From positions 1 to 44,327 of the forward strand of contig CAIRES010000032.1 of the NCBI GenBank assembly GCA_903877645.1: DNA of 44,327 bases, given 5' to 3'. The stretch is from an uncultured Bacteroidota bacterium (lineage in GTDB: Bacteria; Bacteroidota; Bacteroidia; Chitinophagales; Chitinophagaceae). Both the position numbers and the translations under genes were made by a program. Shown one piece after another: positions 15,512 through 36,160 of this stretch; position 1 is the stretch's first letter; the number at the start of each line of letters is the position of its first letter. The notes under the pieces are model-generated. The model did no database searches. It had not been told where the DNA came from and worked only from the letters and a program-made list of their open reading frames with translations.

Positions 15512-15539
15512 CAAACCCTGAAGCTCGCTTCAGGGTTTG
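15512..15539. terminator. Bidirectional terminator hairpin
   Basis: A 12-bp perfect stem (CAAACCCTGAAG, 15512-15523, pairing with 15528-15539) with a CTCG tetraloop lies between the convergent transporter and barrel genes. T-runs on either side are poor, but stem strength and position support a shared terminator. Confidence 0.65.
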
Positions 15540-15567
15540 ACATTTATTATCAGCTAAAATATATTGC

Positions 15568-17676
15568 TTATTCCCCCCTGCCTCTTTTACCTAAGCGATA
15601 ATTGAGCGAGAACTGGAATGAAGGGCTTTTATACAACTGTGTAGATACCGACTTGGCGCCGCCGTCTTTCGCATTATCCCAGAATGACTGTACATCGCGC
15701 AGGTCAAGGGTTACATTAGGTGATACCTTGTATGCTACACCGAACAAATAACCTAAACCAAACCTTGAATTGAAGTCAGAAGTATTCAGCTTAGGTGCAT
15801 TGTCATTAGCCTGTGATGCCGGGATGCTTGTAGCCACCGGCCCTGTAGGCGATGCAATAGTAGCAGCGCCGGTATTGATGGAGAATGAATACACAATGTT
15901 ACCGCCTGCGATAAAGGTAAAGTTACCCTTGCTGTAACGAATGCTGATCGGCATCTCAAGGCTATGCAGGGTAGAGAAACTGTATGAGTTGAGCATCAGC
16001 TGCTTTGTACCGTTATTGAGGTAATTGTAGTAGTTATCATTTACCTGGTAATCGTTATTGATCCTGTGGAAGTATTTGAATTCTGTCATCAGGCCAAGGT
16101 CATCGTTAAAGAACAACTCGCCTGTAAGGCCAAACTGGAAGCCCTTAAAGCTGTTAGGACCAAAGAATGTACCGTTGATACCGGCAGTAAGGCCCGGCGC
16201 AAAACGCATCAGAGATACCTTGGTCTTTACATCATTAAATTCTTCTTTCAGCTTTTCAACAGGCGATACAGAACTGGTATTTTTAGTAGCAGTAGCAGTC
16301 TTAGTTGCTGCTCCAGGGGTATTTGCAGCATTTGCTGCTGCACCGGGTACTACAGGCGCATTATCTGCACCAACAGTATTGCTGATCATATTGCCGAGGT
16401 TTGATTTTTTAGCCACTGCCTCCGGCGAGCTGGCCGCAGGTGCATTCATACCCAGCTCTTCGGTAAGTGTTTCTATAGAGATAGTATCCACATGAAACTC
16501 TGTTGTTCTCTGCTCGGTTTTAATGCTGCGTTGCAACACGATCATCCGCTCAATTGTCCTTTTGCCCTTGCTGTTATTGACCATGCTGTTATTAGGCAGC
16601 TTGGTAGCAGCCATTTTCTGCTCAGCAGTACCGGTATTGTTGCCGGTTGTACCTTGTTTAGCCGAAGGCTTTCCTATGCTATTGCCGGGCATAGTTGCAT
16701 TGCCGGACACTTTTACCGCAGGAGCGCATGTCTTATTTGCCGTAGTAGCAGCAATAGATACAGGAGCATTATTAGCGGTATTGACTGAAGATGAACTACT
16801 GCTTAACGCCATAGTTTTCATATCCACACCTGCACCATTTGCTTTGCTCTTAGGTGTCTTATCAGCAGTGCCTGTGGTAGCTACTGATGATGGCTGAGCG
16901 GTTACCCTATTATTTTTTGCTTCATTCTTTACTGTTACAGCAGTAGTGTTTGCGGCTGTTGCATGTTTTGGCGCAGCAGCATTTTTATTACCGCGGTGCT
17001 GTACATCGGCAGGCACTGCTACTAAGGCTACAGGCTTATCTGCTTTGTTAGTTGCAGTGGCTACTGCGGCAGTAGCGGTGTGCTGTATTTTGCCAGCCAC
17101 ATCATTCGCCGGAGCGGCAGATGTGTTTGTATTCTTTTTGTTGTGAGCTTTTACATTACTTGCTGTAGGTTTACTATCAGTTGCATGACTGATAGTACCG
17201 GTAACAGCAGTTGATTTTGCTGAGTTTGCGTCTTTATTGTTTGTTTTATCGGTAGTTGCTGCTTTTTTATGTTCTGCTTTGCGCACAGGCATTACGTTTG
17301 CGTCACTATTCTTCATAGGAGCATCGTTCACACCGGCGGACGATAATTGATTGTTGGCGGCTACTTCAGCATTTAAGTTCTGTGTGTGTGCCATGCCTGT
17401 AGTACCCACAGTTGCGGCTGAAGCAACAGGAGCATTATTGCCAGTTTCTTTAAATGACGACAGCTCGTAGCCGCCCACGGTGATAAGCCCCAGCAGTACC
17501 AGGACCCCCACCGCACCAAACATGCGATTCCAGAAAAACGGCACAACCTTGCGCTGTGGCATTTCTTCATCCAGCAGTTCCCGCATGTTCAGCCATGCGC
17601 CGGAGGGCTCACGCTCCTCCCTGCCTTCGAGCCGCTGCCTTACCAGGTCATCGACTTTTATGAAATTTTTATCCAT
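15568..17676 (-). CDS. Dual-membrane-spanning anti-sigma-like protein with C-terminal outer-membrane beta-barrel
   Basis: The 702-residue protein has an unusual layout. Residues 1-50 are a charged cytoplasmic segment (VDDLVRQRLEGREEREPSGA), of the type found next to Bacteroidota sigma factors. One inner-membrane helix covers about 52-71. Residues 80-480 are a low-complexity region rich in Ala, Thr, Asn and Lys, long enough to cross the periplasm. Residues about 485-702 are alternating beta strands typical of an outer-membrane barrel (GFQFGLTGELFFNDDLGLMT; FQFSLNYRLGKRG). The gene begins 33 bp after the ECF sigma gene, so it is probably its anti-sigma partner. Proteins of this plan have been described in Bacteroides as dual membrane-spanning anti-sigma factors; assignment here is inference from architecture. 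Confidence 0.8.
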   Translation of the reverse strand: MDKNFIKVDDLVRQRLEGREEREPSGAWLNMRELLDEEMPQRKVVPFFWNRMFGAVGVLVLLGLITVGGYELSSFKETGNNAPVASAATVGTTGMAHTQNLNAEVAANNQLSSAGVNDAPMKNSDANVMPVRKAEHKKAATTDKTNNKDANSAKSTAVTGTISHATDSKPTASNVKAHNKKNTNTSAAPANDVAGKIQHTATAAVATATNKADKPVALVAVPADVQHRGNKNAAAPKHATAANTTAVTVKNEAKNNRVTAQPSSVATTGTADKTPKSKANGAGVDMKTMALSSSSSSVNTANNAPVSIAATTANKTCAPAVKVSGNATMPGNSIGKPSAKQGTTGNNTGTAEQKMAATKLPNNSMVNNSKGKRTIERMIVLQRSIKTEQRTTEFHVDTISIETLTEELGMNAPAASSPEAVAKKSNLGNMISNTVGADNAPVVPGAAANAANTPGAATKTATATKNTSSVSPVEKLKEEFNDVKTKVSLMRFAPGLTAGINGTFFGPNSFKGFQFGLTGELFFNDDLGLMTEFKYFHRINNDYQVNDNYYNYLNNGTKQLMLNSYSFSTLHSLEMPISIRYSKGNFTFIAGGNIVYSFSINTGAATIASPTGPVATSIPASQANDNAPKLNTSDFNSRFGLGYLFGVAYKVSPNVTLDLRDVQSFWDNAKDGGAKSVSTQLYKSPSFQFSLNYRLGKRGRGE

Positions 17677-17709
17677 ATGGATAAGTTTTATTTTTTTACT
17701 AAATGAGTT

Positions 17710-18282
17710 CTATATCTTAAAATGTAATTCTAATTTTTCTATTTTTTCTTTCAACACCTTTCGCCCTTCTGATAAATGCCACTTTGATGTTCCTTCGCTT
17801 ATCCCCAGTATGTTTCCTATCTCCCTGTGTGTGTAGCCTTCGAGTACATACATATTAAAAACCGTTCGTGTGGCATCGGGCAGCATCTGCACCAGTTCTA
17901 TCAACTGATCGTAATAGAGCTTGTCTGCGTGGTCCTTATGCACCATCTCGTCCTTCTCCACCAGCACTATATTGGTGCTGTAGCGGTTATTCTGCTTCAC
18001 ATAGTCTGCCACCGCATGAAAAACGATCTTTCTGAGCCAACCTTCAAAAGAACCCTGGAAATTATATTGCTTTATCTTCTGGAAGCCACGTAAAAAGCCA
18101 TTATTCAATACCTCTTCCGCCTGCATCTCCTGGTCTATATATCTGCGCACCAATGCCATCATCCTCGGGTAAAATAAATGGTATAGCTTCTCCTGTGCAG
18201 CGCGCTCGTTGCGAATACACCCCTGGATGAGGTGCTCAAGCTCACTGGCATGACCTGTAGTATATGCCAAAGCTATAGACAA
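17710..18282 (-). CDS. ECF-type RNA polymerase sigma-70 factor
   Basis: The 190-residue protein has region 2 at about 30-95 (LFYPRMMALVRRYIDQEMQA; FEGWLRKIVFHAVADYVKQN) and region 4 at about 130-180 (LPDATRTVFNMYVLEGYTHR; IGNILGISEGTSKWHLSEGR), the standard ECF pair without regions 1 and 3. It directs RNA polymerase to a dedicated regulon. The start is TTG, because an in-frame stop sits four codons upstream and no ATG is close. The following gene on the same strand is the anti-sigma-like barrel protein, so the pair is a likely envelope-signal module. An 89-bp inverted-repeat element lies just upstream and could influence its expression. Confidence 0.93.
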   Translation of the reverse strand: MSIALAYTTGHASELEHLIQGCIRNERAAQEKLYHLFYPRMMALVRRYIDQEMQAEEVLNNGFLRGFQKIKQYNFQGSFEGWLRKIVFHAVADYVKQNNRYSTNIVLVEKDEMVHKDHADKLYYDQLIELVQMLPDATRTVFNMYVLEGYTHREIGNILGISEGTSKWHLSEGRKVLKEKIEKLELHFKI

Positions 18283-18334
18283 GTATATTGGTTATTAAAC
18301 ACTAACATTGATATAAGACCGCTTTGCGATTAAA

Positions 18335-18423
18335 ATGGTTGGGTACCACTCCCCTATGTTATATAAAATTAACAAATTTCGGAGACATAATTAATCAACA
18401 GTTAAAAGAAATTACCCAACCAT
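18335..18423. repeat. 89-bp element bounded by 11-bp inverted repeats
   Basis: ATGGTTGGGTA at 18335-18345 and its exact reverse complement at 18413-18423 enclose 67 bp of AT-rich DNA upstream of the sigma gene. No target-site duplication is evident. It could be a small non-autonomous element or a pair of operator half-sites. Confidence 0.5.
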
Positions 18424-19010: not shown

Positions 19011-19958
19011 TTATTTCACTATCACATAACACTTCCTGTGCAGCTTGCCCTGGAAATCGAAGGGAGTTGTTTGGCCGGTAATGTCTTTGACAATGGTGGC
19101 AGGTATGCTGTCGCGGTCGAGTACAAAGTCTTTATAGTTGTTACTGAAGTATATCTTCCCGGTTTCGGTACAGCCCTTCAGTAGTTTTTTGAGCAGTGCT
19201 ACGTGGTCGCGCTGCACATCAAAGTTATCTTCCATGCGCTTGCTGTTGGAAAACGTGGGTGGATCACAGACTATAATGTCGTAGGCATCGGCAGGCATAT
19301 AATTGAGCCACTCCATCACGTCGCCATGTATAAAATCGTGCTGGGTGTCTTTATACAGCTTGTTGTACTGCATATTGCGCTTGGCCCAGTTGAGGTACGT
19401 TTTAGACAGATCCACTGAGGTGACGGTGGCAGCCCCACCCGCGGCTGCATACACACTAAAAGAACCAGTGTAGCAAAAGAGGTTGAGTACATTCATCCCC
19501 TTGGCCTCCTCGCGCACCATGCCGCGTGTAATGCGGTGATCGAGGAACAGGCCGGTATCGAGGTAATCAGTGAGGTTGATGATAAAGCTGAGGCCATTCT
19601 CCGGCACTATACGCTCCACCTTCTGTTCGTCAAACTTCTCGTATTGCCCCTGGCGGCCGGCTTTGCGCTGGCGTATCTTCATGAAGATGTTGTCGGGAGA
19701 TATTTCCAGCACAGCAGCCAATACCTCCTTGCAGCTTTGCAGCCACACTTCATGCTCGGCATCCTCCATACCGTGGCGGCGCTTGTACTCTGCGGCATGT
19801 ACTACCCCATTGTACCAGTCTATGGCAAAGGGAAATTCAGGCAGGTCGTGATCATAAAACCGGTAGCAGGCAATATTCTGCTTGCGGGCTATCTTGCTGA
19901 AGTGCTTGTACACCTTCAGCAGCCGGTTTTGGAACATGGAGAGTTTATCGTCGCTCAA
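19011..19958 (-). CDS. RlmK-like 23S rRNA (guanine-N7) methyltransferase
   Basis: The 315-residue protein matches the C-terminal (RlmK) half of E. coli RlmKL, which makes m7G2069 in 23S rRNA, as a standalone enzyme. Motifs are ENGLSFIINLTDYLDTGLFL then DHR, the SAM motif I NLFCYTGSFSVYAAAGGA, the acidic SVDLSKTYLNWAKRN, and motif IV VCDPPTFSNSKRM. The RlmL half is absent here. The TTG at 19958 overlaps the VapC stop (TTGA). An ATG at 19937 (MFQNRLLKVYKHFSK) is an equally good start and would remove the overlap. The exact target base is inferred from the family. Confidence 0.85.
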   Translation of the reverse strand: MSDDKLSMFQNRLLKVYKHFSKIARKQNIACYRFYDHDLPEFPFAIDWYNGVVHAAEYKRRHGMEDAEHEVWLQSCKEVLAAVLEISPDNIFMKIRQRKAGRQGQYEKFDEQKVERIVPENGLSFIINLTDYLDTGLFLDHRITRGMVREEAKGMNVLNLFCYTGSFSVYAAAGGAATVTSVDLSKTYLNWAKRNMQYNKLYKDTQHDFIHGDVMEWLNYMPADAYDIIVCDPPTFSNSKRMEDNFDVQRDHVALLKKLLKGCTETGKIYFSNNYKDFVLDRDSIPATIVKDITGQTTPFDFQGKLHRKCYVIVK

Positions 19959-20362
19959 GAAGAAGGAATTTGTGCTTTATCCCAGGGATTAATAAAATGT
20001 AAGTTTTCAACTCCCTTAAAATCTGCGACATTGCGGGTAACAATTGTCAAATCATTGATGAGCGCAGAAGCAGCGATGATCGCATCACCAAGTTTGAGCT
20101 TTTTATATTTCCGTTTTAATACAATAGTTTGTTGTACAACTGCATCATTTAAAGGAATTATTAAAGCTGCACGGATAAACTCTTCCATGTAGAGCTGCTT
20201 TTCAAAAGGATCGTCATATCCTAATACTTCAACCTTCACTACTACGGAGATCACAAACGCTCTATTGAAAACATCTTCTACAAAGTCACTTGCATGTTGA
20301 GGAAGAAGGCCGGAAGTATAATCAATTATTATGTTGCTATCTATTAAATACTTCTGTCCCAT
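19955..20362 (-). CDS. PIN-domain (VapC-type) toxin
   Basis: The 135-residue PIN-domain ribonuclease shows the four acidic positions expected for the active site: D8 (LIDSNIIIDY), E45 (VVKVEVLGY), D93 (KLKLGDAIIAASAL) and D114 (VTRNVADFKGV). VapC-family toxins are Mg-dependent endonucleases that cut tRNA or rRNA and stop translation. The start overlaps the antitoxin's 3' end by 19 bp, typical of a type II toxin-antitoxin operon. The stop overlaps the possible TTG start of the rRNA methyltransferase. All catalytic residues are intact, so the toxin should be active. Confidence 0.9.
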   Translation of the reverse strand: MGQKYLIDSNIIIDYTSGLLPQHASDFVEDVFNRAFVISVVVKVEVLGYDDPFEKQLYMEEFIRAALIIPLNDAVVQQTIVLKRKYKKLKLGDAIIAASALINDLTIVTRNVADFKGVENLHFINPWDKAQIPSS

Positions 20363-20577
20363 TCATTCCGGGCTTGTTTTAAATATTGATGATACTTTTC
20401 ACCCTCTTCTTTAGTAAACAATCCTTTAAATTTTGCCGCATTAAAATCCTTTTTCACGTTATCATCGGCAACTTCATCTTTCGCGTACAGCAAAACCTCA
20501 AGCTCCTTACCAATATAGTTGTTGGGAACAGATATCACTACGGTGTTATTATGCGGTGTTACAATTGCCTTTACCAT
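20344..20577 (-). CDS. Antitoxin of the PIN-toxin pair
   Basis: The 77-residue protein lies immediately upstream of the toxin and overlaps its start by 19 bp. The N-terminal half (VKAIVTPHNNTVVISVPNNY) is strand-rich, as in small DNA-binding antitoxins with a swapped-hairpin fold. The C-terminal half (residues 40-77) is charged and probably wraps the toxin. No specific antitoxin family can be named from the sequence, so the role is assigned from position and size. Autorepression of the operon is expected by analogy. Confidence 0.75.
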   Translation of the reverse strand: MVKAIVTPHNNTVVISVPNNYIGKELEVLLYAKDEVADDNVKKDFNAAKFKGLFTKEEGEKYHQYLKQARNEWDRSI

Positions 20578-22940: not shown

Positions 22941-23028
22941 GTATTTTAATGCAACACCAAAGATTCAGGTCGATTTTTACGTCTATATGAGTAACTTAGA
23001 TTACTTATTCTCCTAAAAATCGCCCAAA

Positions 23029-24342
23029 ATGAAAAGAACATACCTGCTTTTTATTGTTGTATTGCTTTGCGGCAGCGCTTTCGCGCAGTCTGGTTCGCGA
23101 CTTACCTCGTTCGCCCAATTTGGTTATGATACCACAATTGGCTTTATTGATACCGGCAGGTGTTACTATTACTCCGCTGATCATGGTGGTGCAATAATGG
23201 GATATGAGGATGATGGTTATGAAATGCTGTGTAATTACCCCGTAATACCGAAGCCTGGCTTCGATCTCTTCATTGGTATACAGGGCGTTACTAATTTCGA
23301 TTCAACCTGGCAAGCAAATTCTTCTGGCACCGAGGCCACAACCCAAACATTCGATATCAACGGCAACAAAACAACTGTATTATGGAAACACAATGTGGCT
23401 GGCACATGGGTCATTGATGAAGGGCATTATTATTTATACGATGCCAATCATAATATACTTCAATATACAGATACTACATATACTGCTGGCGTAGCAACAC
23501 CTAAATACAACTATGCATATACTTATGATACATCCAACAGGTTATTAACACAGATGATACAAGGCGTATCAGGTGGAATGTGGCAAAATTTATTCTACTA
23601 CCACTATAGTTATGATAATAGCGGCAAATTAGTTCTGATCAGGCAACAGGATTGGGTATCTGCATCTTTGAGTTGGGAGGATGCAACAGAGATTGCCTAT
23701 CACTATCAAGGAGCAATACTCGACACCTCTTTCTCCAGTACTTCTTTTGGCTCCGGATTTATTCCTCAAACTTTTCAGACCCATTATTTTTCACCGGGCA
23801 ATGACACTATGATTACTAATGTATATGGCGGCGGTGACAATTACTTGCGGATGACCAACGTATACGACAGTCGTCACAATAAGGTACAATACCTTTTTAA
23901 GGTGCTTGATTCATCCGTGATACCATACGATTTAACACACGAGTACGAGTGGGCGTACAATTCGTATGATCAGGTAATCAATGAAAAAATATTCAATAAT
24001 GATCTTTCCGGAAATCTGCTGTTGAACGCAATGTTCCGCTTCTACTACGAGCTATACACCCCTGCATCCACCAAGCGGATCAGCATCGCTAACAACAATA
24101 TCGCTGCCTATCCTTCCCCTACAAAAAACCTAATTACCTTAAAACTGGAGTGGAATGACTCAAGGCCATTTTCCATAGGCATCTATGACATGAATGGCCG
24201 TATGGTGAAGCAATGGACCGAGAACGCAGCCAACAGCTTTGCGAAAACACTGCCTATACCCGGCCTTGCCGCGGGCAATTACATCATCAAAGCTACCAAC
24301 GGAGCGCAGGAGCAAACCGGCAGGTTTGTGGTAGGCAACTAA
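23029..24342 (+). CDS. Secreted T9SS-cargo protein, first of a tandem pair
   Basis: The 437-residue protein has a signal peptide (1-19, MKRTYLLFIVVLLCGSAFAQ) and a C-terminal T9SS sorting domain (about 355-437: AAYPSPTKNLITLKLEW, MNGRMVKQW, GNYIIKATNGAQEQTGRFVV). The middle is rich in Tyr, Asp and Asn with YD-repeat-like turns (YTYDTSNRLLTQ; YSYDNSGKLVLI), as in RHS/YD beta structures. It is predicted to be secreted or surface-bound, but no enzyme motif is visible. The next gene is a paralogue 21 bp downstream. The signal-peptide and C-terminal DNA of the two are nearly identical while the middles diverge. Confidence 0.85.
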   Translation: MKRTYLLFIVVLLCGSAFAQSGSRLTSFAQFGYDTTIGFIDTGRCYYYSADHGGAIMGYEDDGYEMLCNYPVIPKPGFDLFIGIQGVTNFDSTWQANSSGTEATTQTFDINGNKTTVLWKHNVAGTWVIDEGHYYLYDANHNILQYTDTTYTAGVATPKYNYAYTYDTSNRLLTQMIQGVSGGMWQNLFYYHYSYDNSGKLVLIRQQDWVSASLSWEDATEIAYHYQGAILDTSFSSTSFGSGFIPQTFQTHYFSPGNDTMITNVYGGGDNYLRMTNVYDSRHNKVQYLFKVLDSSVIPYDLTHEYEWAYNSYDQVINEKIFNNDLSGNLLLNAMFRFYYELYTPASTKRISIANNNIAAYPSPTKNLITLKLEWNDSRPFSIGIYDMNGRMVKQWTENAANSFAKTLPIPGLAAGNYIIKATNGAQEQTGRFVVGN

Positions 24343-24363
24343 CCTTAAAAAAACACCCAAAAA

Positions 24364-25680
24364 ATGAAAAGATCATACCTGCTTTTTATTGTTGTATTGC
24401 TTTGCAGTAGCGCTTTCGCGCAGTCTGGTTCGAGAGTTGTATCATTCCAGGAATTCAATACCGATACTACAGGAACGCCCCGATTTTTTGGAAACTATGT
24501 ATATTCTAATGGCAATGGTGGGCAGATGTTCATAGGAATGATAGAGCCTTGCATAGACTGCGATTATCCGATAACAGTTATCCCCCAATATGACTATACC
24601 GCAATTCATCCGGGATGCGTGATATTTGACACTGCCTGGCAGATCACAGATTCGGATACAGCGAGAACGATACACACTTTTGCCGGCCATAATATATCAT
24701 CCGGCCTGATACAAAATAGCTATGCAGGCAGCGGTGGAATATGGTACAACAATGCAACCTCTGCATATATTTATGATGTCTATAATAACATATTACAGCA
24801 AACAAACCAAGTTTGGTCATCTGGAACATGGGTAAATGCAGACCAATATATCTTTACTTACGACATTGCGAACAGGCCAATATCAGAAATATACCAAAGA
24901 TGGGATTCTACCGGTTGGAATAATGATTTCGAAACTTTATACACTTATAATTCTGATGGAGACCCTATAGTCTTTGAATATAAAAACTGGATATCCGGAA
25001 ACTGGCAGAAAGAAGAGAAAAGATGCTATTATTATACAACAGGCACGCTCGATTCATTTGTACGTTTTTTTGCACAGGTTATTGGAGGAGATACAATTTA
25101 TACGCATGAAAATGTGGGATACTATTATTATTCTTCTGCCGGTGATACCGTTATTCTAAATAACACTTATGGAACAGATACATTTTTCAGGGTAATCAAC
25201 ACCTATGACGCACATAAGAACACTACATTACGAGCTGAGTATGCCCTGGATCCTACACTAACAGGATATTCCTCAAACAAATGGGACTATTCATATAATG
25301 CCAATAACAAACTTACAACCGAATACTATTATGACATGGACACATCGGGCCGTTGGGCATTTTCCGGACTAAACAGATTTTCTTATGAAGCCTATACACC
25401 GGCAGGGATAAAAGCAATCAATGAAGATGCAGGGCATATACTCGTTTATCCTTCTCCCGCGCAAAATATGGTTACGATAAAACTCAATTGGGCAGAGTCT
25501 CTACCTTTCAGCATGTCTATATATGACAACATTGGCAGAGTAGTACGAGTGTGGAAGGAACCGGCAATGACTTCATGTACGAAGACAATTGTAACAGCCG
25601 GAATACCTAACGGCAATTACATCATCAAAGCCACCAACGGAGCGGAGGAGCAAACCGGCAGGTTTGTGGTGGGCAACTAA
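24364..25680 (+). CDS. Secreted T9SS-cargo protein, second of a tandem pair
   Basis: The 438-residue paralogue of the preceding gene has the same signal peptide (MKRSYLLFIVVLLCSSAFAQ) and sorting domain (LVYPSPAQNMVTIKLNWAES; GRFVVGN). The central region has related turn motifs (FTYDIANRPISEIY; YTYNSDGDPIVFEY; YSYNANNKLTTEYY) but a different sequence, with a CIDC pair near residue 60. The first 69 bases of the two genes differ at only three positions, and so do the last 66, which suggests duplication followed by central divergence or repeated gene conversion. Its stop is 2 bp from the stop of the small convergent gene. Confidence 0.85.
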   Translation: MKRSYLLFIVVLLCSSAFAQSGSRVVSFQEFNTDTTGTPRFFGNYVYSNGNGGQMFIGMIEPCIDCDYPITVIPQYDYTAIHPGCVIFDTAWQITDSDTARTIHTFAGHNISSGLIQNSYAGSGGIWYNNATSAYIYDVYNNILQQTNQVWSSGTWVNADQYIFTYDIANRPISEIYQRWDSTGWNNDFETLYTYNSDGDPIVFEYKNWISGNWQKEEKRCYYYTTGTLDSFVRFFAQVIGGDTIYTHENVGYYYYSSAGDTVILNNTYGTDTFFRVINTYDAHKNTTLRAEYALDPTLTGYSSNKWDYSYNANNKLTTEYYYDMDTSGRWAFSGLNRFSYEAYTPAGIKAINEDAGHILVYPSPAQNMVTIKLNWAESLPFSMSIYDNIGRVVRVWKEPAMTSCTKTIVTAGIPNGNYIIKATNGAEEQTGRFVVGN

Positions 25681-25682
25681 GC

Positions 25683-25877
25683 CTACAAATCCCTTGCCAT
25701 CCTCAGTATATTGGCTATTGCCTGCGGCCTCGGTTGCAGAAGGTCTGCTGCTGCTTCTTTGAGCAGGTTCACCTCATCGGCCATGCGGGACGACAGATCA
25801 CCTTTCGCAAACACAATGGTGTGTGCATGGTCGTAAAGGTGTTTTTCAGTAAGTTTCTTATGTAAAGTTTTGTTCAT
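25683..25877 (-). CDS. Small hypothetical protein
   Basis: The 64-residue reading frame (MNKTLHKKLTEKHLYDHAHT) is polar and mainly helical in composition, with a Leu/Ala-rich C-terminal half. It has no signal peptide, membrane segment or Cys pair. It is supported by an ATG start, by tight packing against the convergent T9SS gene, and by a 146-bp gap upstream that can hold its promoter. No family is recognised. Confidence 0.55.
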   Translation of the reverse strand: MNKTLHKKLTEKHLYDHAHTIVFAKGDLSSRMADEVNLLKEAAADLLQPRPQAIANILRMARDL

Positions 25878-26023
25878 TGAGTAAATGTGGTTTTAAAAAA
25901 AACGCACAAAGCGGCTGAATATTGTATAGGAAACAGAAAATAATGTTAAACCGCCATGTATTGGCAAAGTATTAGCAAATAAATTACATTTTCACTAATA
26001 TCTTTAACGTAAAATCGGGCTAT

Positions 26024-26941
26024 ATGAGCACAATAGGCATAACAGGGGGTACAGGGTTTGTGGGCCAACATTTATCGGCATTGCTGGTGAGCAAGGGCTA
26101 TAAGGTCATTATTTTCACCAGGGGTGATTCAAAAGCAGGGGCCGGCGACATCTCTTATGCCCACATGGATGCCACCCGGCAGGAATGCGACACTACTGCA
26201 CTCGGTAAAATAGATGCCATGGTGAATATGGCCGGAGCAGGTATAGCCGATGAGCGGTGGACGGAAAAAAGAAAACAGGAAATAGTGGAGAGCCGCGTGA
26301 ACCTGACCGGATTCCTGGTAGCACAGATGAAGCAGCATGCTACCGCTTGCAAAACCTTTGTGAGCGCTTCGGCCACCGGGTACTATGGCGGCGACCGCGG
26401 CGATGCCCGCTCATTCACAGAAACATCCATACCTGCCAGTAACTTCCTGGGAAATACGTGCAGGGAATGGGAGGACGAAGCTCATAAAGCCGAAGCATTT
26501 GCCCGCACAGTGATCTTGCGTTTTGGGATAGTGCTCGGCAAAGAAAGCGGCGCGTTCCCTATTCTGGCTAAGCCCTTGTCTTTCGGAATAAAACCCACCC
26601 TGGGCAGCGGCACACAAATAGTAAGCTGGATAGAGGTAGGCGACCTGGTGCGGATGATATTGTTTGCCCTTGAAAAGAAAGAGGTAACAGGCATTTATAA
26701 CGCAGTGGCGCCAAAACCTGTGACACATGGCACACTAATGGATACTATAGGCAAGGTAAAGGATGGCATTCATATACCCGTACCGGCCCCGGCATTTGCA
26801 CTCAAGATCATCCTCGGCGAGATGAGCATTGAAGTATTGCAAAGCTGCACCGTAAGCGCACAAAAAATACTGGATGCCGGTTTCACTTTCGATCATCCGG
26901 ATATACTTAGCGCAACAAAGGCTATCCTGGGTAAGAGATAG
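26024..26941 (+). CDS. TIGR01777-family epimerase (YfcH-like)
   Basis: The 305-residue protein is an atypical short-chain dehydrogenase/epimerase. The Rossmann motif GITGGTGFVGQHL is at residues 5-17. NMAGAGIADERWTEKRKQEI and SASATGYYGGDRGD are diagnostic of TIGR01777, as is the C-terminal DUF1731-like region (VPAPAFALKIILGEMSIEVL). E. coli YfcH belongs to the family; the substrate is not established. A TATCTTTA -7-like box lies at 25999-26006. The stop codon sits inside a strong hairpin (26916-26947) shared with the convergent protease gene. Confidence 0.92.
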   Translation: MSTIGITGGTGFVGQHLSALLVSKGYKVIIFTRGDSKAGAGDISYAHMDATRQECDTTALGKIDAMVNMAGAGIADERWTEKRKQEIVESRVNLTGFLVAQMKQHATACKTFVSASATGYYGGDRGDARSFTETSIPASNFLGNTCREWEDEAHKAEAFARTVILRFGIVLGKESGAFPILAKPLSFGIKPTLGSGTQIVSWIEVGDLVRMILFALEKKEVTGIYNAVAPKPVTHGTLMDTIGKVKDGIHIPVPAPAFALKIILGEMSIEVLQSCTVSAQKILDAGFTFDHPDILSATKAILGKR

Positions 26942-26947
26942 CCTTTG
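26916..26947. terminator. Terminator-like hairpin spanning the end of the epimerase gene
   Basis: CAAAGGCTATC (26916-26926) pairs perfectly with 26937-26947 around a 10-base loop. The last codons and the stop are inside the hairpin. Only a loose T-rich stretch follows. It sits between two convergent genes whose stops are 28 bp apart. Confidence 0.5.
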
Positions 26948-26969
26948 CACTCTTTATCTTTCCAGGCTT

Positions 26970-29255
26970 TTATTCTACAATAAATTTCTTCACTACCCTG
27001 TTACTGTTGGCATCAATGAGCTGCATATAGTAGATGCCTTTCGCCCATGATGATACTGATATATCAGATTGGCCATCTATACTACCCTTCCATACCTGCT
27101 GGCCTACTGTGTTATACACTTCGGCCTGCATAGCTGTGGATGCTGATACATGCAGTGTGTTGGCAGCAGGCACAGGATATACTTTTACATCGTTTGCTAC
27201 AGATGCCACCTGCTGCACACCGGTAGGGGATACCGGGTCTGCGGAATTATAAGTAACCGAAAAATTCTTACTGTTCACGTTAAAGAATACATTGCCCGCG
27301 CCTTTTACTTTAAAGCGACAAGTGGTGTGGGTAGCAGGGGGGTTAGGTACAGTGATTGTTGCCGAACCATTGTTGGTGAACGATCCTATATAGTAAGTCC
27401 AGGTATTACCGCCATCTATAGACATATAAATGTTCACATTCGCCGCGCTGATGGGCGAGGTGTTTGTATTCACTACGTTCCAGGTAATGGTCTGCGTACT
27501 GTGCCCGGCATAGGTGATCCCGGCAGTGTTCTGGCTGGTCACCACAAAGCCTGCGCCTGTATTGATCGCTGAGAGGGTAACCTGATCATCAGGAAAAGTG
27601 AAGCAGCCTAAATTATGGATGATGTCCCTGAAGGTGCACCTGAAGGTGAGGGTGCGTGCCACATCGGGCACTTTCTCGCCTTCGTTGCCTTCAATACCCG
27701 CGTTGCTGAGTGTACCGGACAGCACCATACTGTTCTTGGGGAATATGCGGGTAGCAGTGGTAACAGGATCGTAAGACCTGAATATAGGGCCTGTGGCATG
27801 TGTGTTCACCAGTTCATTTGCTGCACCGAGATCCCACTCTTCCCAGCAATAAAGCACGGTTGAGTCTGCAACAGAGTCGGTGAGCGCCGGGCCGGTCAGC
27901 TCGAATGGAGTAAGGTATGGAATAGAATAACTGGCTGAAAAAGCAGAGTAATTCACCAGTTTATTGCTGGTTGCAGTATGCGCCGCACATGTGTTGCCTT
28001 CTGCCGAAATGTACGTCTGTATCTGGCTGAGGCTCACCGCATGAAAGTAGGCATCGCTGTGGTATTGAAGATCATCAGGGCCGCAAATGCCTGCATAGGC
28101 CATAATAGTAGATCCGCTTCCCGGCTCATAGGCAATTGTGCCCGTCCTGTTGCCACCACCGCAGCTACCATCTGTACCGTTATTAAAGGGGTGGTCTGCA
28201 CCATATTCATGCCCCATTTCGTGAGCAGCATAATCCACATCAAATCCATCGCCTACAGGCGTTGAGCTACCTGTTTCGCTTTGTGCTTTATAGCCCGACT
28301 GACAGATGACCCCCTGTAGCGATAAGCCACCGCCGCCTGTAGTGAACACATGGCCTATATCATAGTTTGCGTTGCCTATAGCAGCATCACATTCGGTCTG
28401 GTTATCGGTAAGGAGGTTGCCGGCATTCAGGTTATCCGCGCTGTAGGGATCTCCCGCAGCCGTTACAAAAATGATCGAATTCTCAGCGCTCACAAAATTC
28501 ATGTGGATGGAGAACTCACGCTCATATATACCATTGATCCGGTTCATAGAAGTGGTCATCTTGCTGAATGCTTGTGCCACTGTTGGGGAGGCGAGGCCGG
28601 TAGCTGCCATTGCATATTGATTATCGCAGGCCAACGCAAGGCGGTAAGTGCGTAGCTGGTAGCCGTTCGTTTGTTTTTGCGCAGGGTTGCGCGAGGCATC
28701 GGTTGGCGCAACTACAGGGCCATGCTCACCGGAGCCCTGCACCTGGCATTTCATCCTGTCTGTGAAAGACCTTGTTTCGTCTCTTTTATAATGTACCATA
28801 TAAAAGCCATCGTGGTAGTTATCATACGGATCGATGAAAGAAGTATTTTCTCCGTCAAAGATCATGGCATGAAAACCATACATGGTAAAATCCAGTTTAG
28901 CGGTCACATTATGGTTATCCAGCGCTTCGGCAGAGAAAGTTTTAATTTCAGGATATTGTGCAGCCAGGTCATCGGGCATCATGGGTGCTTCCCACACATT
29001 AAAGTCGCGGGTGGTGCCATCCGGCATCGGCAGTGTCACGATCATGCCTTGTGCAGGATCCGTAGAAAGGGAGAACATCTGCAGCTTTAATGTAGCCTCA
29101 TCCATGGTGTATACGCTAAAGCTGGTTGGGTGCTGCCATTGTAGCTTTTGCGGAGCAGCGTCGTTGCCTACTTGCTGCCACATGCTGCCCGCTTGAGCAC
29201 ATACACTGCCCAGCAATGCTGCGCTTAATACTATTCCTGAAAATATCCTGTTCAT
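26970..29255 (-). CDS. Reprolysin-like zinc metalloprotease with T9SS sorting domain
   Basis: The 761-residue secreted protease has a signal peptide (1-20) and a propeptide-like region to about 195. The catalytic domain (about 198-420) carries the metzincin site AAHEMGHEYGADHPF (H345, E346, H349, H355) and a Met-turn (STIMAYAGICG), as in M12B reprolysin-like peptidases. A beta-rich region at about 430-670 includes FTFPDDQVTLSAINTGAGFV and TWNVVNTNTSPISAANVNIY. A T9SS sorting domain occupies the last 75 residues (KVYPVPAANTLHVSAS; GIYYMQLIDANSNRVVKKFI). All zinc ligands and the catalytic Glu are present. Target proteins are unknown. Confidence 0.92.
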   Translation of the reverse strand: MNRIFSGIVLSAALLGSVCAQAGSMWQQVGNDAAPQKLQWQHPTSFSVYTMDEATLKLQMFSLSTDPAQGMIVTLPMPDGTTRDFNVWEAPMMPDDLAAQYPEIKTFSAEALDNHNVTAKLDFTMYGFHAMIFDGENTSFIDPYDNYHDGFYMVHYKRDETRSFTDRMKCQVQGSGEHGPVVAPTDASRNPAQKQTNGYQLRTYRLALACDNQYAMAATGLASPTVAQAFSKMTTSMNRINGIYEREFSIHMNFVSAENSIIFVTAAGDPYSADNLNAGNLLTDNQTECDAAIGNANYDIGHVFTTGGGGLSLQGVICQSGYKAQSETGSSTPVGDGFDVDYAAHEMGHEYGADHPFNNGTDGSCGGGNRTGTIAYEPGSGSTIMAYAGICGPDDLQYHSDAYFHAVSLSQIQTYISAEGNTCAAHTATSNKLVNYSAFSASYSIPYLTPFELTGPALTDSVADSTVLYCWEEWDLGAANELVNTHATGPIFRSYDPVTTATRIFPKNSMVLSGTLSNAGIEGNEGEKVPDVARTLTFRCTFRDIIHNLGCFTFPDDQVTLSAINTGAGFVVTSQNTAGITYAGHSTQTITWNVVNTNTSPISAANVNIYMSIDGGNTWTYYIGSFTNNGSATITVPNPPATHTTCRFKVKGAGNVFFNVNSKNFSVTYNSADPVSPTGVQQVASVANDVKVYPVPAANTLHVSASTAMQAEVYNTVGQQVWKGSIDGQSDISVSSWAKGIYYMQLIDANSNRVVKKFIVE

Positions 29256-29443
29256 ATTCTTGTTTTTTTATAATGCTATTGGGTCGAAAAGATGAATAAT
29301 TGGTCGTTTTATAGATGAAACTGCTATGTAACCGGATGTAAATTACTGAATATGAATTGATGGTAAAAAAAATGTTGTGGATACGCTGAAAATCGTGGCG
29401 TTTATTACTAACACATGACATTTCGCCATAACGTATTATTCTT

Positions 29444-29474
29444 TTTAAAATCAGCCGTATTGCCTGTATCTTAG
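29444..29474 (+). promoter_or_regulatory. Candidate promoter of tsaE
   Basis: TTTA (29444-29447), 19 bases, TATCTTAG (29467-29474) deviate by one base in each box from TTTG-N19-TAnnTTTG. The ATG at 29479 follows after four bases, so the transcript would be essentially leaderless. Confidence 0.4.
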
Positions 29475-29478
29475 CCCC

Positions 29479-29949
29479 ATGGAAGGCAAGGTGATACTCC
29501 ACTTATCATATACATTAGATACTATAGCAGATGCCGCAAAGGAATTCTGGCAGGCGTTGAAAGGCAATAGCGTATTTGCTTTCAGCGGGGAGATGGGCGC
29601 AGGTAAGACCACTTTCATCCATTACCTGTGCGATCACCTGCAGGTGCAGGATGCAGTGAGCAGCCCCACATTTGCGCTCATCAATGAATATCATTACATA
29701 AGCGACAGCCAAAAGGAACAGGTCATATACCACCTGGACTGGTACCGCCTTCGGGATACTGCCGAAGCCATCAATGCAGGCATGGAAGACTGCATCATAC
29801 AAGCTAATGCAGGAAAAGCGATCTGCTTTATAGAATGGCCCGAGAAAGCAATGGAACTCCTACCCTCCCAATACCTCTGGATCGGCATCGAAACCATAAC
29901 CCCTACAGAAAGGGCCATGACGGTGAAAATGGCCAACACGCTCCCTTAA
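29479..29949 (+). CDS. tsaE: tRNA threonylcarbamoyladenosine biosynthesis ATPase TsaE
   Basis: TsaE is the small ATPase that works with TsaB and TsaD to place the t6A modification at position 37 of ANN-decoding tRNAs. The protein has 156 residues. The Walker A is SGEMGAGKTTFIHYL (36-50, K43). The family motif SSPTFALINEYHY and HLDWYRLRDTAEA (the usual H-x-D-x-Y-R block) follow, then ICFIEWPEKAMELLP. Length is normal. TsaB and TsaD are not in this window. Confidence 0.94.
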   Translation: MEGKVILHLSYTLDTIADAAKEFWQALKGNSVFAFSGEMGAGKTTFIHYLCDHLQVQDAVSSPTFALINEYHYISDSQKEQVIYHLDWYRLRDTAEAINAGMEDCIIQANAGKAICFIEWPEKAMELLPSQYLWIGIETITPTERAMTVKMANTLP

Positions 29950-30051
29950 AAAGGGTTTACCCCGGCATATCTGCTATTCGCCTGCGGGGTTGGGGTTTAC
30001 AACTATATTTATTACATTGCACTTGTATAATAACCAATAAATATCCCACAT

Positions 30052-33000
30052 ATGTATTTTAATGGTACAAAATGCGCTGCTCTTGTGTTTTGTTGTTCAC
30101 TTTCGTTGTCGCTAATGGCGAAAGACGCAAAGCCGGCAAAGGGAGGCAGCATGCACAAACCCCTCTGTTTTATCGAAAATAAGGGACAGGTATTGAACCA
30201 GGACAACGCTCCGAGGAATGATATACAGTACAAACTGTCTACTCCGGGTATGAACCTGTATGTAGGCAATGCACAGCTTCACTACCAGTTCAATAAAACG
30301 GAAGGTACTCCTTCGGCACCTTCTGCCAATACATCGGGCTACCGTATGGATGTGCAACTGCTGGGCGCTAACCCTTCAGCAAAAGTAACGGCTGATGGCC
30401 AACTGGGATATTGTGAGAACTACTACCTGCCACAACTTGGTGAAAGCGCGGTAACCGCGCACGCCTGGAGCAAGGTGACTTATAAAGACGTTTATCCTTC
30501 TATTGACTGGGTGGTGTACGTAAAGAACGACCAGGTTGAGTATGACTTCGTGGTGCGCCCCGGTGGTAATGTAGCCGATATCAGGATCGCGTATGACGGA
30601 GCAACTGCGCTGGGCCTCAATGCCGATGGCAGCCTCTACGCCAATACCCCAATGGGCAATGTTGCAGAAAAAACACCTTTAGCATTCGAAACAGGCACAC
30701 ACAAGGCCGTGGCCTCTAAGTTTGTATTGCATGACAACGTAGTGAGCTTTGAAACAGGTTCATACAAAGGCTCACTGACCATTGATCCATACCTTTCATG
30801 GAGCACCTACATAGGCGGTGGCAGCGAAGATGAGATCACCGGCGTGGCCATCAGCGGTGGCAATACTTATGTGGGCGGCTTTACGGCCAGTTCAGGTAGC
30901 ATAGCCACTTCAGGGTCTTTCCAGTCGGCTAATGCAGGCGGCGCTTTTGATGCCTTTATTGCCAAATATAATAATGTAGGCATCATCCAGTTTGCCACTT
31001 ACTTTGGTGGCGCCGGATCAGACCAGGCCACAAGCATAGCTGTAGACAACACAGGAGCCAACGTTTACCTTGCCGGTAATACATCATCACTTGCCACCGG
31101 GCTCATCACAGGCGGCGCTTATCATACCATCAACGAAGGCGGTGCATCAGATGGTTTCCTCATCAAATTCAATACCACTACCGGAGCCCGCGTATGGTGT
31201 ACTTTTTATGGCGGCACCGGCACAGATGTGATCAACGGAGTAGCGGTTGACGGATCTAATAATGTATACATCACCGGGCAAACCGCCAGCGCAACGCTGA
31301 TCGCGTCTTCCCTTACTGTATATCAACCATCTATCAATGGCACCAACGATGCATTCTTAGCTAAATTCAATGCTGGTGGCACAATACAGTGGTCGACCTA
31401 CTATGGTGGCACCGCACAGGATAACGGCATGGGCATTACCTGCGATGCATTGGGCAACGTGATCTTTACCGGGCAAACGAACAGCGTCATCAACATAGCA
31501 ACAGCAGGCGCTTTCCAAACTGCGCTGAGCGGCGTTACTGATGGCTTCATTGCCAAATTCAATTCGGCAGGCAGCAGACTGTGGGGTACTTACATCGGCA
31601 GCACCGGCGCAGAGCAGGTGAATGCAGTAGCCACCAACCCTTCCAATAACGACATCGTGGTAGGTGGTAACACAACCAGCACTACCGGCTTCTCTACAAC
31701 AGGCAGCGCGCAGACAACTTATGGTGGCGGCGTACAGGATGCATTTATAGCCTATTTCAACTCGGCAGGCACACATGCCTGGACCAGCTATTATGGTGGC
31801 ACATCACTCGATTACGGACAGGCAGTATGCTTTGATCCTTTTGGCAATGTATTGCTTGCAGGCGGCACATTCAGTAGCACAGGTATTGGTACTGCGGGCA
31901 GTTACCAGCCAGCTATCGCCGGTGACTACGATGCGTATGTGGTTAAACTGACCCCACTGGGCCAGCGTATATGGGGCACCTACTTTGGCGGCACCCTCTA
32001 CGACTACGCCAACGGCATAAAATGTGATGCCAATAACCAGATCACTATAGCCGGATATACCACCAGCACAGCAGGCGTGGCCACATCAGGCACCAGCCAA
32101 ACTGTTTACGGAGGCGGTGTATATGATGCCTTTGTCACACAGTTCAAAACAGATACTACAGTAATGCTGAATACGCCATTCACAGATACACTCGTTTGTG
32201 CAGGTGGCACATTAGTGGTCCCTTACACAGTTTATCCTGCAGGCGTCACCTTCATGCCCGGCAATGTATTTACCGTGCAGCTTTCCAATGCTGTGGGCAG
32301 TTTTGGCGCACCGGTGAACATCGGTACTGCTACTGCCATATCATCAGGCTCCGTCACCTGTACCATACCTGCGCTCACTGCTACCGGAACTGCATACCGT
32401 ATCCGCATAGTGGCCAGCAACCCCGCATTTACATCACCTGATGATTACCTCAACATTCACGTGGTCAATTCTATATCAGCCAGCGTCGCAACAGCGACCA
32501 CGCCTACCTGCGTAGGCCAAACCATCTATTTATTTGATGCTGCACCATATACTATAGCCTCTTACAGCTGGACAGGCCCTTCAGGCTTTACGTCAGCAGC
32601 ACAAAACCCTACAAGGGCAAGTGCATTGATAGCTTATGCGGGCATTTACTCAGTTACTACCCTGCATAACGGATGCCCTACCATGACCTCAACGGTGAAT
32701 GTAGTGGTGAATTCCACAATACCACCACCACCTATACCTACTGCCAGCGTAGGTTGTGCAGGCAGCAATATCAATCTTTTTGCCAACCCCGACACCACAG
32801 CGCTTGTCACTTACGGATGGGCGGGCCCTTCAGGGTTCACCTCTACCGATCAGAATCCGGTTGTCACATCTTCTACCACGGCTAATACTGGCGACTATTT
32901 TGTCTCCGATACGCTGCAGGGTTGTCCTTCTTTACAGACCCATGTACATGTGATCGTACAGCCGGTTATCCCTACTTCAGTATCTATTACGGTGAGCCCG

Positions 33001-33792
33001 TACGATACCGTATGTGCAGGCACAATGGTGAGTTTTGCTGCTGCACCGGTGAACGGGGGTGTATCACCTACCTACCAATGGATGATCGGCGCATCGCCTG
33101 TGGTAGGTGCCATATCGAGTACATGGGCTTCCTCTACACTGGCTACAGGTGATGATGTGTATTGCATCATGTCCAGCAGCGTTATTTGTCCGTCACCTGT
33201 CAACGCGATCAGCAATAACTTCCCTATGGAAGTAGTTGACAATTCGCCCGTTGTATATATCGGTGCCACTCCGGGCACACACGTAAGCCCGGGATCGTCA
33301 ATTACCTTCAACTCAGCGGTATATAATGGCGGCACAGGAGCTACCTACCAATGGTATGTGAATGGAGTAGCAGTGCATGGCGCAACCAACAGCACCTACA
33401 CCATAGCGGCTGTGAACCAGGTCGATACAGTGAGCCTGACCGTTGCCAGCACCATGATGTGTGCGGTACCGGGGTCTGGCACCAGCAATACGTTGATCGT
33501 TTCCACAACCGTAGGTGTTGCCAATGTTACCGCAGCACTTGAAAACATCGGGCTGTACCCTAACCCTAACAACGGCACGTTTACAATAAAGGGAGATATA
33601 TCAGGCACAGCTCCTATATCTCTTGAAGTGACCAATATAATGGGCCAGATCGTATACAAGGATGTAGCGACCGTGAGCCAGGGACAAATAACTAAAAACA
33701 TGGCATTACCGGCGGTTGCAGATGGCATTTACTTCCTTCGCCTGGTACAGGGCGGCGGAAGCAAGATCATGCGCTTCTCGGTACAACGCTAA
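30052..33792 (+). CDS. SBBP-repeat beta-propeller-like secreted protein with Ig-like domains and T9SS sorting domain
   Basis: The 1246-residue protein has a signal peptide (about 1-22) and an N-terminal region opening FIENKGQVLNQDNAPRNDI, typical of Bacteroidota SBBP proteins. Seven SBBP-type repeats lie at about 247-700, each marked by a WGTYFGG-like motif (STYIGGGSEDE, ATYFGGAGSDQ, CTFYGGTGTD, STYYGGTAQD, GTYIGSTGAE, TSYYGGTSLD, GTYFGGTLYD) with a period near 63 residues. Two PKD/Ig-like repeats (SWTGPSGFTSAAQNPT and GWAGPSGFTSTDQNPV) and further Ig-like domains follow. The last 80 residues are a T9SS sorting domain (NIGLYPNPNNGTFTI). An adhesive or matrix role is a guess. Confidence 0.9.
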   Translation: MYFNGTKCAALVFCCSLSLSLMAKDAKPAKGGSMHKPLCFIENKGQVLNQDNAPRNDIQYKLSTPGMNLYVGNAQLHYQFNKTEGTPSAPSANTSGYRMDVQLLGANPSAKVTADGQLGYCENYYLPQLGESAVTAHAWSKVTYKDVYPSIDWVVYVKNDQVEYDFVVRPGGNVADIRIAYDGATALGLNADGSLYANTPMGNVAEKTPLAFETGTHKAVASKFVLHDNVVSFETGSYKGSLTIDPYLSWSTYIGGGSEDEITGVAISGGNTYVGGFTASSGSIATSGSFQSANAGGAFDAFIAKYNNVGIIQFATYFGGAGSDQATSIAVDNTGANVYLAGNTSSLATGLITGGAYHTINEGGASDGFLIKFNTTTGARVWCTFYGGTGTDVINGVAVDGSNNVYITGQTASATLIASSLTVYQPSINGTNDAFLAKFNAGGTIQWSTYYGGTAQDNGMGITCDALGNVIFTGQTNSVINIATAGAFQTALSGVTDGFIAKFNSAGSRLWGTYIGSTGAEQVNAVATNPSNNDIVVGGNTTSTTGFSTTGSAQTTYGGGVQDAFIAYFNSAGTHAWTSYYGGTSLDYGQAVCFDPFGNVLLAGGTFSSTGIGTAGSYQPAIAGDYDAYVVKLTPLGQRIWGTYFGGTLYDYANGIKCDANNQITIAGYTTSTAGVATSGTSQTVYGGGVYDAFVTQFKTDTTVMLNTPFTDTLVCAGGTLVVPYTVYPAGVTFMPGNVFTVQLSNAVGSFGAPVNIGTATAISSGSVTCTIPALTATGTAYRIRIVASNPAFTSPDDYLNIHVVNSISASVATATTPTCVGQTIYLFDAAPYTIASYSWTGPSGFTSAAQNPTRASALIAYAGIYSVTTLHNGCPTMTSTVNVVVNSTIPPPPIPTASVGCAGSNINLFANPDTTALVTYGWAGPSGFTSTDQNPVVTSSTTANTGDYFVSDTLQGCPSLQTHVHVIVQPVIPTSVSITVSPYDTVCAGTMVSFAAAPVNGGVSPTYQWMIGASPVVGAISSTWASSTLATGDDVYCIMSSSVICPSPVNAISNNFPMEVVDNSPVVYIGATPGTHVSPGSSITFNSAVYNGGTGATYQWYVNGVAVHGATNSTYTIAAVNQVDTVSLTVASTMMCAVPGSGTSNTLIVSTTVGVANVTAALENIGLYPNPNNGTFTIKGDISGTAPISLEVTNIMGQIVYKDVATVSQGQITKNMALPAVADGIYFLRLVQGGGSKIMRFSVQR

Positions 33793-33817
33793 TCATCAAA
33801 CCAATGAATGATCCCCT

Positions 33818-33850
33818 CTTGCCCCGGCCACAAGCCGGGGCAAGCTTTTT
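33818..33850 (+). terminator. Strong intrinsic terminator after the SBBP gene
   Basis: An 11-bp perfect GC-rich stem (CTTGCCCCGGC, 33818-33828, pairing with 33834-33844) with a 5-base loop is followed by C and five T (33846-33850), 26 bases after the stop. Confidence 0.85.
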
Positions 33851-33881
33851 GTATGAATATCTGAACAAATGTCATCGTGAG

Positions 33882-33913
33882 CTTGTCGAACGGCAACCTA
33901 ACCCTTAACTTTA
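33882..33913 (+). promoter_or_regulatory. Candidate promoter of the CxxC protein-thioredoxin operon
   Basis: CTTG (33882-33885) and TAACTTTA (33906-33913), 20 bases apart, approximate the Bacteroidota consensus. The ATG at 33918 follows four bases later. The site is just downstream of the strong terminator, as expected for a new transcription unit. Confidence 0.4.
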
Positions 33914-33917
33914 CACT

Positions 33918-34229
33918 ATGCAAGAAATGACAACAGTAACCGAAGTGATCACCCACCTGCGTAAAGATGGGTACCTCGAAGACTTCAACCTGCAGCAGAA
34001 CTGCCTCGTATGCAGCAGCAAGAACTTCAGTGTGTTTCACAATGAGTTTGTGATAGACAAAGTGTATCGCTTTGAGGGCAACAGCGACCCTGCTGATGAG
34101 GCTACGGTATATGCGGTATCCAGCCCCAAATACGGCATCAAGGGCATACTGGTGAACGGCGCAGGCATATACACCGACGCCCTTACCGATGAAATGCTGA
34201 ATACACTACAGATGAACAAGAAAATATAA
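33918..34229 (+). CDS. Small conserved-looking CxxC protein upstream of thioredoxin
   Basis: The 103-residue soluble protein has a CxxC pair at C29-C32 (LQQNCLVCSSKNF), an acidic stretch DEFVIDKVYRFEG-like (here NEFVIDKVYRFEG) and a C-terminal KGILVNGAGIYTDALTDEML. Similar short proteins occur in Bacteroidota and are sometimes mislabelled as phosphoribosylpyrophosphate synthetase, but nothing here resembles a PRPP-binding motif. The thioredoxin gene starts 4 bp after its stop, so the two are co-expressed, and the CxxC could be a redox partner or substrate. Function unknown. Confidence 0.8.
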   Translation: MQEMTTVTEVITHLRKDGYLEDFNLQQNCLVCSSKNFSVFHNEFVIDKVYRFEGNSDPADEATVYAVSSPKYGIKGILVNGAGIYTDALTDEMLNTLQMNKKI

Positions 34230-34233
34230 AGCC

Positions 34234-34530
34234 ATGCAAAGCTTCAGCGAAATAATAAAATCTGACAAGCCCGTACTGGTAGACTTCACAGCTACCTGGT
34301 GCGGCCCCTGCAAAATGATGGCCCCGATATTGCACGAGGTAAAAGCAGCCATAGGCGACAAAGCCACCATCATTAAAATAGATGTAGACAAGAACCCCGA
34401 AGTATCGGGGCAATTCCAGGTACAGAGCGTACCCACCCTCATTATCTTCAAACAAGGCAAAGTAATGTGGCGGCAATCAGGCGTAGTGCAGGCAAAAGAA
34501 TTACAGCAAGTTTTGAATAATAATATGTAA
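34234..34530 (+). CDS. Thioredoxin
   Basis: The 98-residue cytoplasmic thioredoxin has the classic active site TWCGPCKMMAP (W22, C23, C26) and the cis-Pro loop VPTLIIFKQG. VDFTATWCGPC and KIDVDKNPEV match the canonical fold in order and length. It starts 4 bp after the CxxC protein gene and is probably translated from the same mRNA. It is a general disulfide reductase; why it is paired with the small CxxC protein is not known. Confidence 0.95.
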   Translation: MQSFSEIIKSDKPVLVDFTATWCGPCKMMAPILHEVKAAIGDKATIIKIDVDKNPEVSGQFQVQSVPTLIIFKQGKVMWRQSGVVQAKELQQVLNNNM

Positions 34531-34575
34531 ATACTTCTTAACTTTATAGTAGTACCACCTTCAAAATGTACCCGC

Positions 34576-36150: not shown

Positions 36151-36160
36151 ATCAGAGGGA

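Follow-up and report, generated by a model that had tools for sequence, protein, structure and literature searches.

The locus considered here raises the question of whether one protein that may span both membranes could pass the state of the outer membrane directly to an ECF sigma factor, and of which genes such a pair would control. In cell-surface signaling of the FecI/FecR type, a signal at the outer membrane likewise reaches an ECF sigma factor, with the receptor and the anti-sigma factor being separate proteins. The pair described here is proposed to share this route, but with one chain instead of two proteins. The window, i.e. the whole stretch of 44,327 nucleotides that was analyzed, is contig C32 of a genome of 3.84 Mb on 88 contigs. 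Its minus strand encodes an ECF sigma factor of 190 residues with a TTG start (17710..18282) and, beginning 33 nt past the end of the sigma gene, a Dma-like partner of 702 residues that is presumed to be an anti-sigma factor (15568..17676). Both genes were thus found where the initial annotation had placed them, and the assignment of the first one as an ECF sigma factor agrees with matches above cut-off to both Sigma70_r2 and Sigma70_r4_2 in Pfam, meaning that the sigma70 regions 2 and 4 are present. Against TIGR02985, the sigma protein scored 77 bits, with a cut-off of 126. Just 3' of the partner gene, an inverted repeat at 15514-15540 was noticed by eye, which might act as a transcription terminator.

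The search for homologous pairs proposed in the initial annotation was productive. Full-length sigma orthologs were found in 33 of the 35 genomes of the genus, and an additional ortholog with 66% identity comes from G035, a genome of a different genus within the family. The ortholog of G006 is cut by a contig end, and none was found in G015, a genome that is 65% complete. The partner lies directly behind the sigma gene in all 34 genomes whose contig runs past the sigma gene, a count that leaves aside G022, in which the contig stops at this gene. Since the arrangement is kept in each of these genomes, it is not due to chance. The MAGs that contain named relatives of the partner carry the labels Flavipsychrobacter, Chitinophagaceae and Taibaiella, and Taibaiella and Flavipsychrobacter are assigned to Chitinophagales by NCBI. 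The TTG start is retained in all 34 sigma orthologs that have their 5' end. The DNA flanking this start (18280-18282) is also unusually conserved across the orthologs.

The layout of the partner was derived from an alignment of 34 sequences, of which 32 are complete with lengths of 637-1036 residues, and column identity was averaged per ten-residue block. Residues 1-45 (17542..17676, minus strand) form a cytoplasmic segment that is presumed to bind the sigma factor, with a column identity of 72-86% for residues 1-40. This segment follows the pattern D9 D10 L11 V12 R13 Q14 ... E20 E21 ... W28 ... M31 ... L34 L35, in which D9, L11, Q14, E20, E21, W28, M31 and L35 are invariant in all 34 orthologs. 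A search of known structures with a profile of the segment gave no relative (best E-value 0.3). Residues 47-70 (17467..17538, minus strand) were assigned by hydropathy to a single inner-membrane helix, placed at 45-64 in a low-confidence model, with a column identity near 58%. That the protein has only one such helix, as initially annotated, holds across the orthologs: the 702 residues contain one hydrophobic stretch (residues 44-74), hydrophobic windows are confined to residues 40-76 in 30 of the 34 sequences at a threshold of 1.6, and the remaining four show the same peak at 1.56-1.59, just below this threshold.

Residues 75-370 (16567..17454, minus strand) are rich in A, T, N, K and S and are presumed, from composition and variability, to be a disordered tether. 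The linker consists to 65% of these five residues, contains one W, F, Y or C among 355 residues, and shows a column identity of roughly 17-37% over most of its length. The low-complexity linker of about 400 residues described previously stands with regard to its composition, but it is interrupted by a conserved island at residues 371-410 (16447..16566, minus strand). This island has a column identity of 44-61% and a nearly invariant DTIS within the otherwise variable linker, and the low-confidence model places strands at 372-386 and 393-407. The great length of the linker, which had been named as a point worth comparison, is not peculiar to this protein, as linker length varies widely and freely between orthologs.

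The C-terminal residues 471-702 (15571..16266, minus strand) comprise a lead helix and a probable eight-stranded outer-membrane barrel, as judged from Pfam, conservation and a structure model. Column identity in the barrel is mostly 50-83% with a variable loop at 601-620, and the AlphaFold2 model of these residues has eight strands. The barrel of the initial annotation is retained as a probable one, with the confidence of the model being only middling (pLDDT 53.9) and the Pfam match to OMP_b-brl_2 (E-value 1.2e-5, 25.9 bits) lying just below the cut-off of 27. Foldseek returned no match for the barrel model at an E-value of 0.001 or better, and the model of the full-length partner was unusable (pLDDT 28.6).

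Alternatively, this chain could be cleaved during export, so that an anti-sigma stub and a barrel act independently and the single chain is a precursor. Cleavage would be easy, as the composition of the linker is that of an unstructured segment and its sequence is highly variable, and an AxA tripeptide occurs within residues 61-90 in six of ten proteins, comprising the partner of the window and nine orthologs. However, the tripeptide is absent from the other four proteins inspected, and each of the 32 complete orthologs encodes both ends of the partner within a single reading frame, which makes separate action of the two parts quite unlikely.

Further information on the N-terminal segment comes from the other sigma factors of the same genome. 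Sixteen matches to Sigma70_r2 were obtained, and all 15 besides the sigma factor of the window were inspected. Five of them are close to it (BLASTP E-value 5e-31 or better), and each has a membrane-anchored gene behind it. Three of these partners (L068, L069 and L070, with 520, 520 and 406 residues) contain a linker, and their C-terminal part appears barrel-like by eye; in Pfam, the partner of L069 has one weak match to OMP_b-brl_2 (16.8 bits, below cut-off) and those of L068 and L070 have no barrel match. The other two (L080 and L081) have partners of 172 and 258 residues, which is too short for a linker plus a barrel. The five partners share the N-terminal motif [I/V/F]DDL..R..L...E..P...W..[LMF]...LD, which is weaker in L080 and L081. 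As a similar motif and helix occur on both long and short partners, the N-terminus appears to travel with the sigma factor while the remainder changes, and this recurrence supports the presumed sigma binding by the N-terminus of the partner. It also bears on the possibility that the partner is an outer-membrane protein of the usual kind, with an unusual N-terminus but no part in sigma control. The C-terminal domain weakly resembles small barrels of the OmpA/OmpX type, as would be expected for such a protein. Nevertheless, the cytoplasmic 40 residues are conserved to the same degree as the barrel, and a similar segment stands behind other related ECF sigma factors even where the partner is too short for a barrel, so that this explanation is very improbable. 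Several more distant ECF genes of this genome have membrane-anchored neighbors of other kinds, as judged by eye.

This architecture corresponds to that of the dual membrane-spanning anti-sigma factors of Bacteroides, to which the partner had been compared in the initial annotation, and the comparison fits in layout. According to excerpts of the Dma report, these proteins begin with an anti-sigma domain, which is followed by a membrane helix, a disordered tether of great length and a barrel at the C-terminus; they are encoded beside a putative ECF21 sigma factor, and occur solely in Bacteroidota (PMC13088901). Three of them, Dma1, Dma2 (BT_1558) and Dma3, are described there for Bacteroides thetaiotaomicron together with the ECF21 sigma factors Das; Dma1 and Dma2 are reported to affect OMV biogenesis and Dma2 also PUL expression (PMC13088901). 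The partner of the window likewise adjoins an ECF sigma factor and has an N-terminal segment, one membrane helix, a long tether and a C-terminal barrel-like domain, which is a likeness in layout. The conserved island within its linker may be a point of difference from Dma1-3. A Dma-like role of the partner is likely. The lineage is different from Bacteroides, as had been pointed out, in that the pair belongs to Chitinophagales, but it is still within Bacteroidota like the Dma family. A further difference from Dma1 and Dma2 is the predicted regulon, which consists of T9SS cargo and PorP/SprF.

The prediction of this regulon starts from the promoter of the sigma gene. ECF promoters typically contain AAC in the -35 region and GTC in the -10 region, and boxes of this type are present ahead of the sigma gene, where they form a predicted autoregulatory promoter, ACCCAACC-N17-GTCT (18316..18344, minus strand; -35 at 18337-18344, -10 at 18316-18319). 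The same sequence was found upstream of the sigma gene in all 34 genomes with upstream DNA, where the spacer was read by eye in four of the 34 rows. In the window, the promoter ends 33 nt ahead of the TTG start, and this distance is about 32-35 nt across the orthologs; one value of 41 stems from a shorter upstream stretch. Without mismatches, the motif occurs in the window only at this site, and with three mismatches allowed it is at chance level (23 versus 27 expected). Three other sigma genes of the same genome have a different upstream sequence, as judged by eye.

Several forms of the motif were compared for the search beyond the operon. A first motif, CCCAACC-N14..17-CRGTC, yielded the operon alone in the genome of the window. 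A form requiring a purine before GTCT missed many sites, and with two mismatches it was at background in this genome, with 74 matches compared to 93 for the reversed pattern. Since a motif with two mismatches is no commoner than its reverse, only near-perfect sites were considered. In this exact form, ACCCAACC-N17-GTCT occurs 107 times in the 35 genomes of the genus compared to 13 times for the reversed pattern, with 33 of the 107 being the sigma promoters and 74 lying elsewhere. In 78 sampled genomes from other genera of the order, a set defined by genus and not by absence of the ortholog, the motif was found nine times and the reversed pattern 29 times. The excess thus goes with the genus that carries this sigma factor. 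With an 18-nt spacer, 50 sites were found compared to 23 for the reversed pattern; 17 of the 50 lie before PorP/SprF genes, and elsewhere such sites are little above the control.

Most of the 74 sites outside the sigma promoters precede genes for proteins with a predicted signal peptide. By a crude script rule, which also scores 45 of 110 background genes of the window's genome as positive, 53 of them are followed by an ORF with a signal peptide, compared to one of the 13 reversed control sites. The median distance between site and start codon is 55 nt for these 53 targets, and one more target (L218) was recognized by eye. The other 20 sites comprise six ahead of a second ECF gene and 14 without a convincing target. 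As the signal-peptide rule is crude, the enrichment was also assessed using sorting domains. For this, 46 complete proteins of the 54 targets were scanned, excluding eight that are cut by contig or stretch ends. At an E-value of 0.01 or better, 25 matched TIGR04183 (T9SS type A sorting domain), five TIGR04131 (type B) and three TIGR03519 (PorP/SprF), where the type A and type B counts may overlap and targets from close relatives such as G003 and G024 are not independent. NHL, SBBP, Big_2, PKD and delta-60 repeats were also detected among the targets. Because type A domains are common, with at least 150 in the genome of the window, a control with background genes is important here. A cruder type A motif was present in 19 of the 46 targets, compared to 6 of 82 background genes with a signal peptide (odds ratio 8.9, p 6e-6). 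The link to the T9SS suggested by these promoter statistics is well supported at the level of sequence. Only two exact N17 sites beyond the operon were found in the genome of the window, on C16 and C75, and the targets of both have a type A sorting domain. Two sites compared to at least 150 such domains indicate that the predicted regulon covers a small share of the T9SS cargo.

A second group of sites lies before a PorP/SprF gene that has orthologs in 30 of the 35 genomes of the genus. Here, CCCAAC[CT]-N17/18-GTCT occurs 56-82 nt before the start codon in all 30 loci, while the reversed pattern does not occur. The spacer has 18 nt in 25 loci and 17 nt in five. With a fixed spacer of 17 nt, only 5 of 35 upstream regions contain the motif at 0-1 mismatch; the count of 30 of 35 regions, which corresponds to the 30 loci, was obtained when spacers of 16-19 nt were allowed and the last base of the -35 box could be either C or T, a pattern that was widened after inspecting the sequences. 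This post hoc choice weakens the result but does not remove it, since the site is at nearly one position throughout. In the genome of the window, the site has an 18-nt spacer (C65:14617-14646), and the protein encoded behind it is PorP_SprF according to Pfam.

The sites before the second ECF gene point to another explanation, in which the pair is of the Dma type but the ACCCAACC regulon beyond the operon depends mainly on a different ECF sigma factor as its reader, for instance the second one (encoded on C51 in the genome of the window), with the window pair sharing or feeding the motif. An exact ACCCAACC-N17-GTCT lies 183-188 nt upstream of this gene in six genomes (L146, L152, L167, L184, L197 and L202), and the gene in the genome of the window (L079) has an upstream copy with two mismatches, as judged by eye. 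For the SM6 promoters of F. psychrophilum, excerpts of that report likewise regard recognition by several ECF factors as possible (PMC9723704). An exact motif was found before the second ECF gene in only these six genomes, compared to 34 of 34 for the sigma gene of the window, and a regulon read mainly by another factor is therefore considered unlikely. The second ECF and the window pair may also form a cascade.

Altogether, the locus probably encodes a sigma/anti-sigma pair of the Dma type, through which the level of some of the T9SS-dependent surface proteins is set. With its residues 1-45, the partner would keep the ECF sigma factor bound on the cytoplasmic side of the inner membrane. The partner would be anchored by its one helix, with the disordered linker spanning the periplasm and the C-terminal barrel inserted in the outer membrane. 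We infer that a change at the outer membrane would act as the signal, altering or cutting the chain and thereby freeing the sigma factor. The freed sigma factor would then transcribe the operon that encodes it, together with genes preceded by ACCCAACC-N17-GTCT or, in the case of PorP/SprF, by CCCAAC[CT]-N18-GTCT. Besides a PorP/SprF, its predicted targets would include lipoproteins and cargo proteins of the T9SS, and some relatives would have the second ECF sigma factor as a further target.

To our knowledge, little is understood of how Bacteroidota adjust their T9SS surface proteins to conditions at the outer membrane, apart from PorXY-SigP and the SM6 promoters. In Porphyromonas gingivalis, PorXY-SigP controls T9SS genes and sigP is autoregulated, as stated in the available parts of two reports (PMC4800418, PMC7712824). 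The window pair is similar in the predicted linkage of an ECF sigma factor to T9SS genes and in its predicted autoregulation. PorXY-SigP differs in using a two-component system, and the excerpts of that report name no Dma-like partner (PMC7712824). For F. psychrophilum, excerpts of the SM6 report describe promoters of a set that includes T9SS genes and one sigma/anti-sigma pair, with ECF control being inferred by its authors (PMC9723704). Both motifs have a -10 box of the ECF type (CGT in SM6) and T9SS genes among their targets, but the SM6 selection in these excerpts covers T9SS machinery such as GldN and PorU, while the motif described here precedes PorP/SprF and cargo genes (PMC9723704). 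In searches of the open-licence PMC literature, no report was found that connects a partner of the Dma type with T9SS genes, and none that deals with Chitinophaga together with an ECF sigma factor and an anti-sigma factor. The conserved promoter and the T9SS-linked predicted regulon are what adds to existing knowledge. The pair offers a short, testable path of one protein, one sigma factor and one promoter motif, and the targets predicted for the genus can be named one by one. The known scope of Dma proteins, which are linked to vesicles and glycan use in gut Bacteroides, would thereby be widened to surface secretion, and to a different class of Bacteroidota.

The window itself also contains a run of genes with T9SS sorting domains (23029-37726). 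Ten proteins of the window were compared with Pfam, and five of them match Por_Secre_tail, including a beta-propeller protein and a metalloprotease that is reprolysin-like; there is a sixth match at 37502-37714. No motif site with up to two mismatches was found near this run. A site with three mismatches (22956-22984) lies 44 nt ahead of the gene at 23029, which is within chance for the window. At 19955-20577, a PIN-domain protein and an upstream partner of 77 residues without a Pfam match possibly form a toxin-antitoxin pair of the VapBC type.
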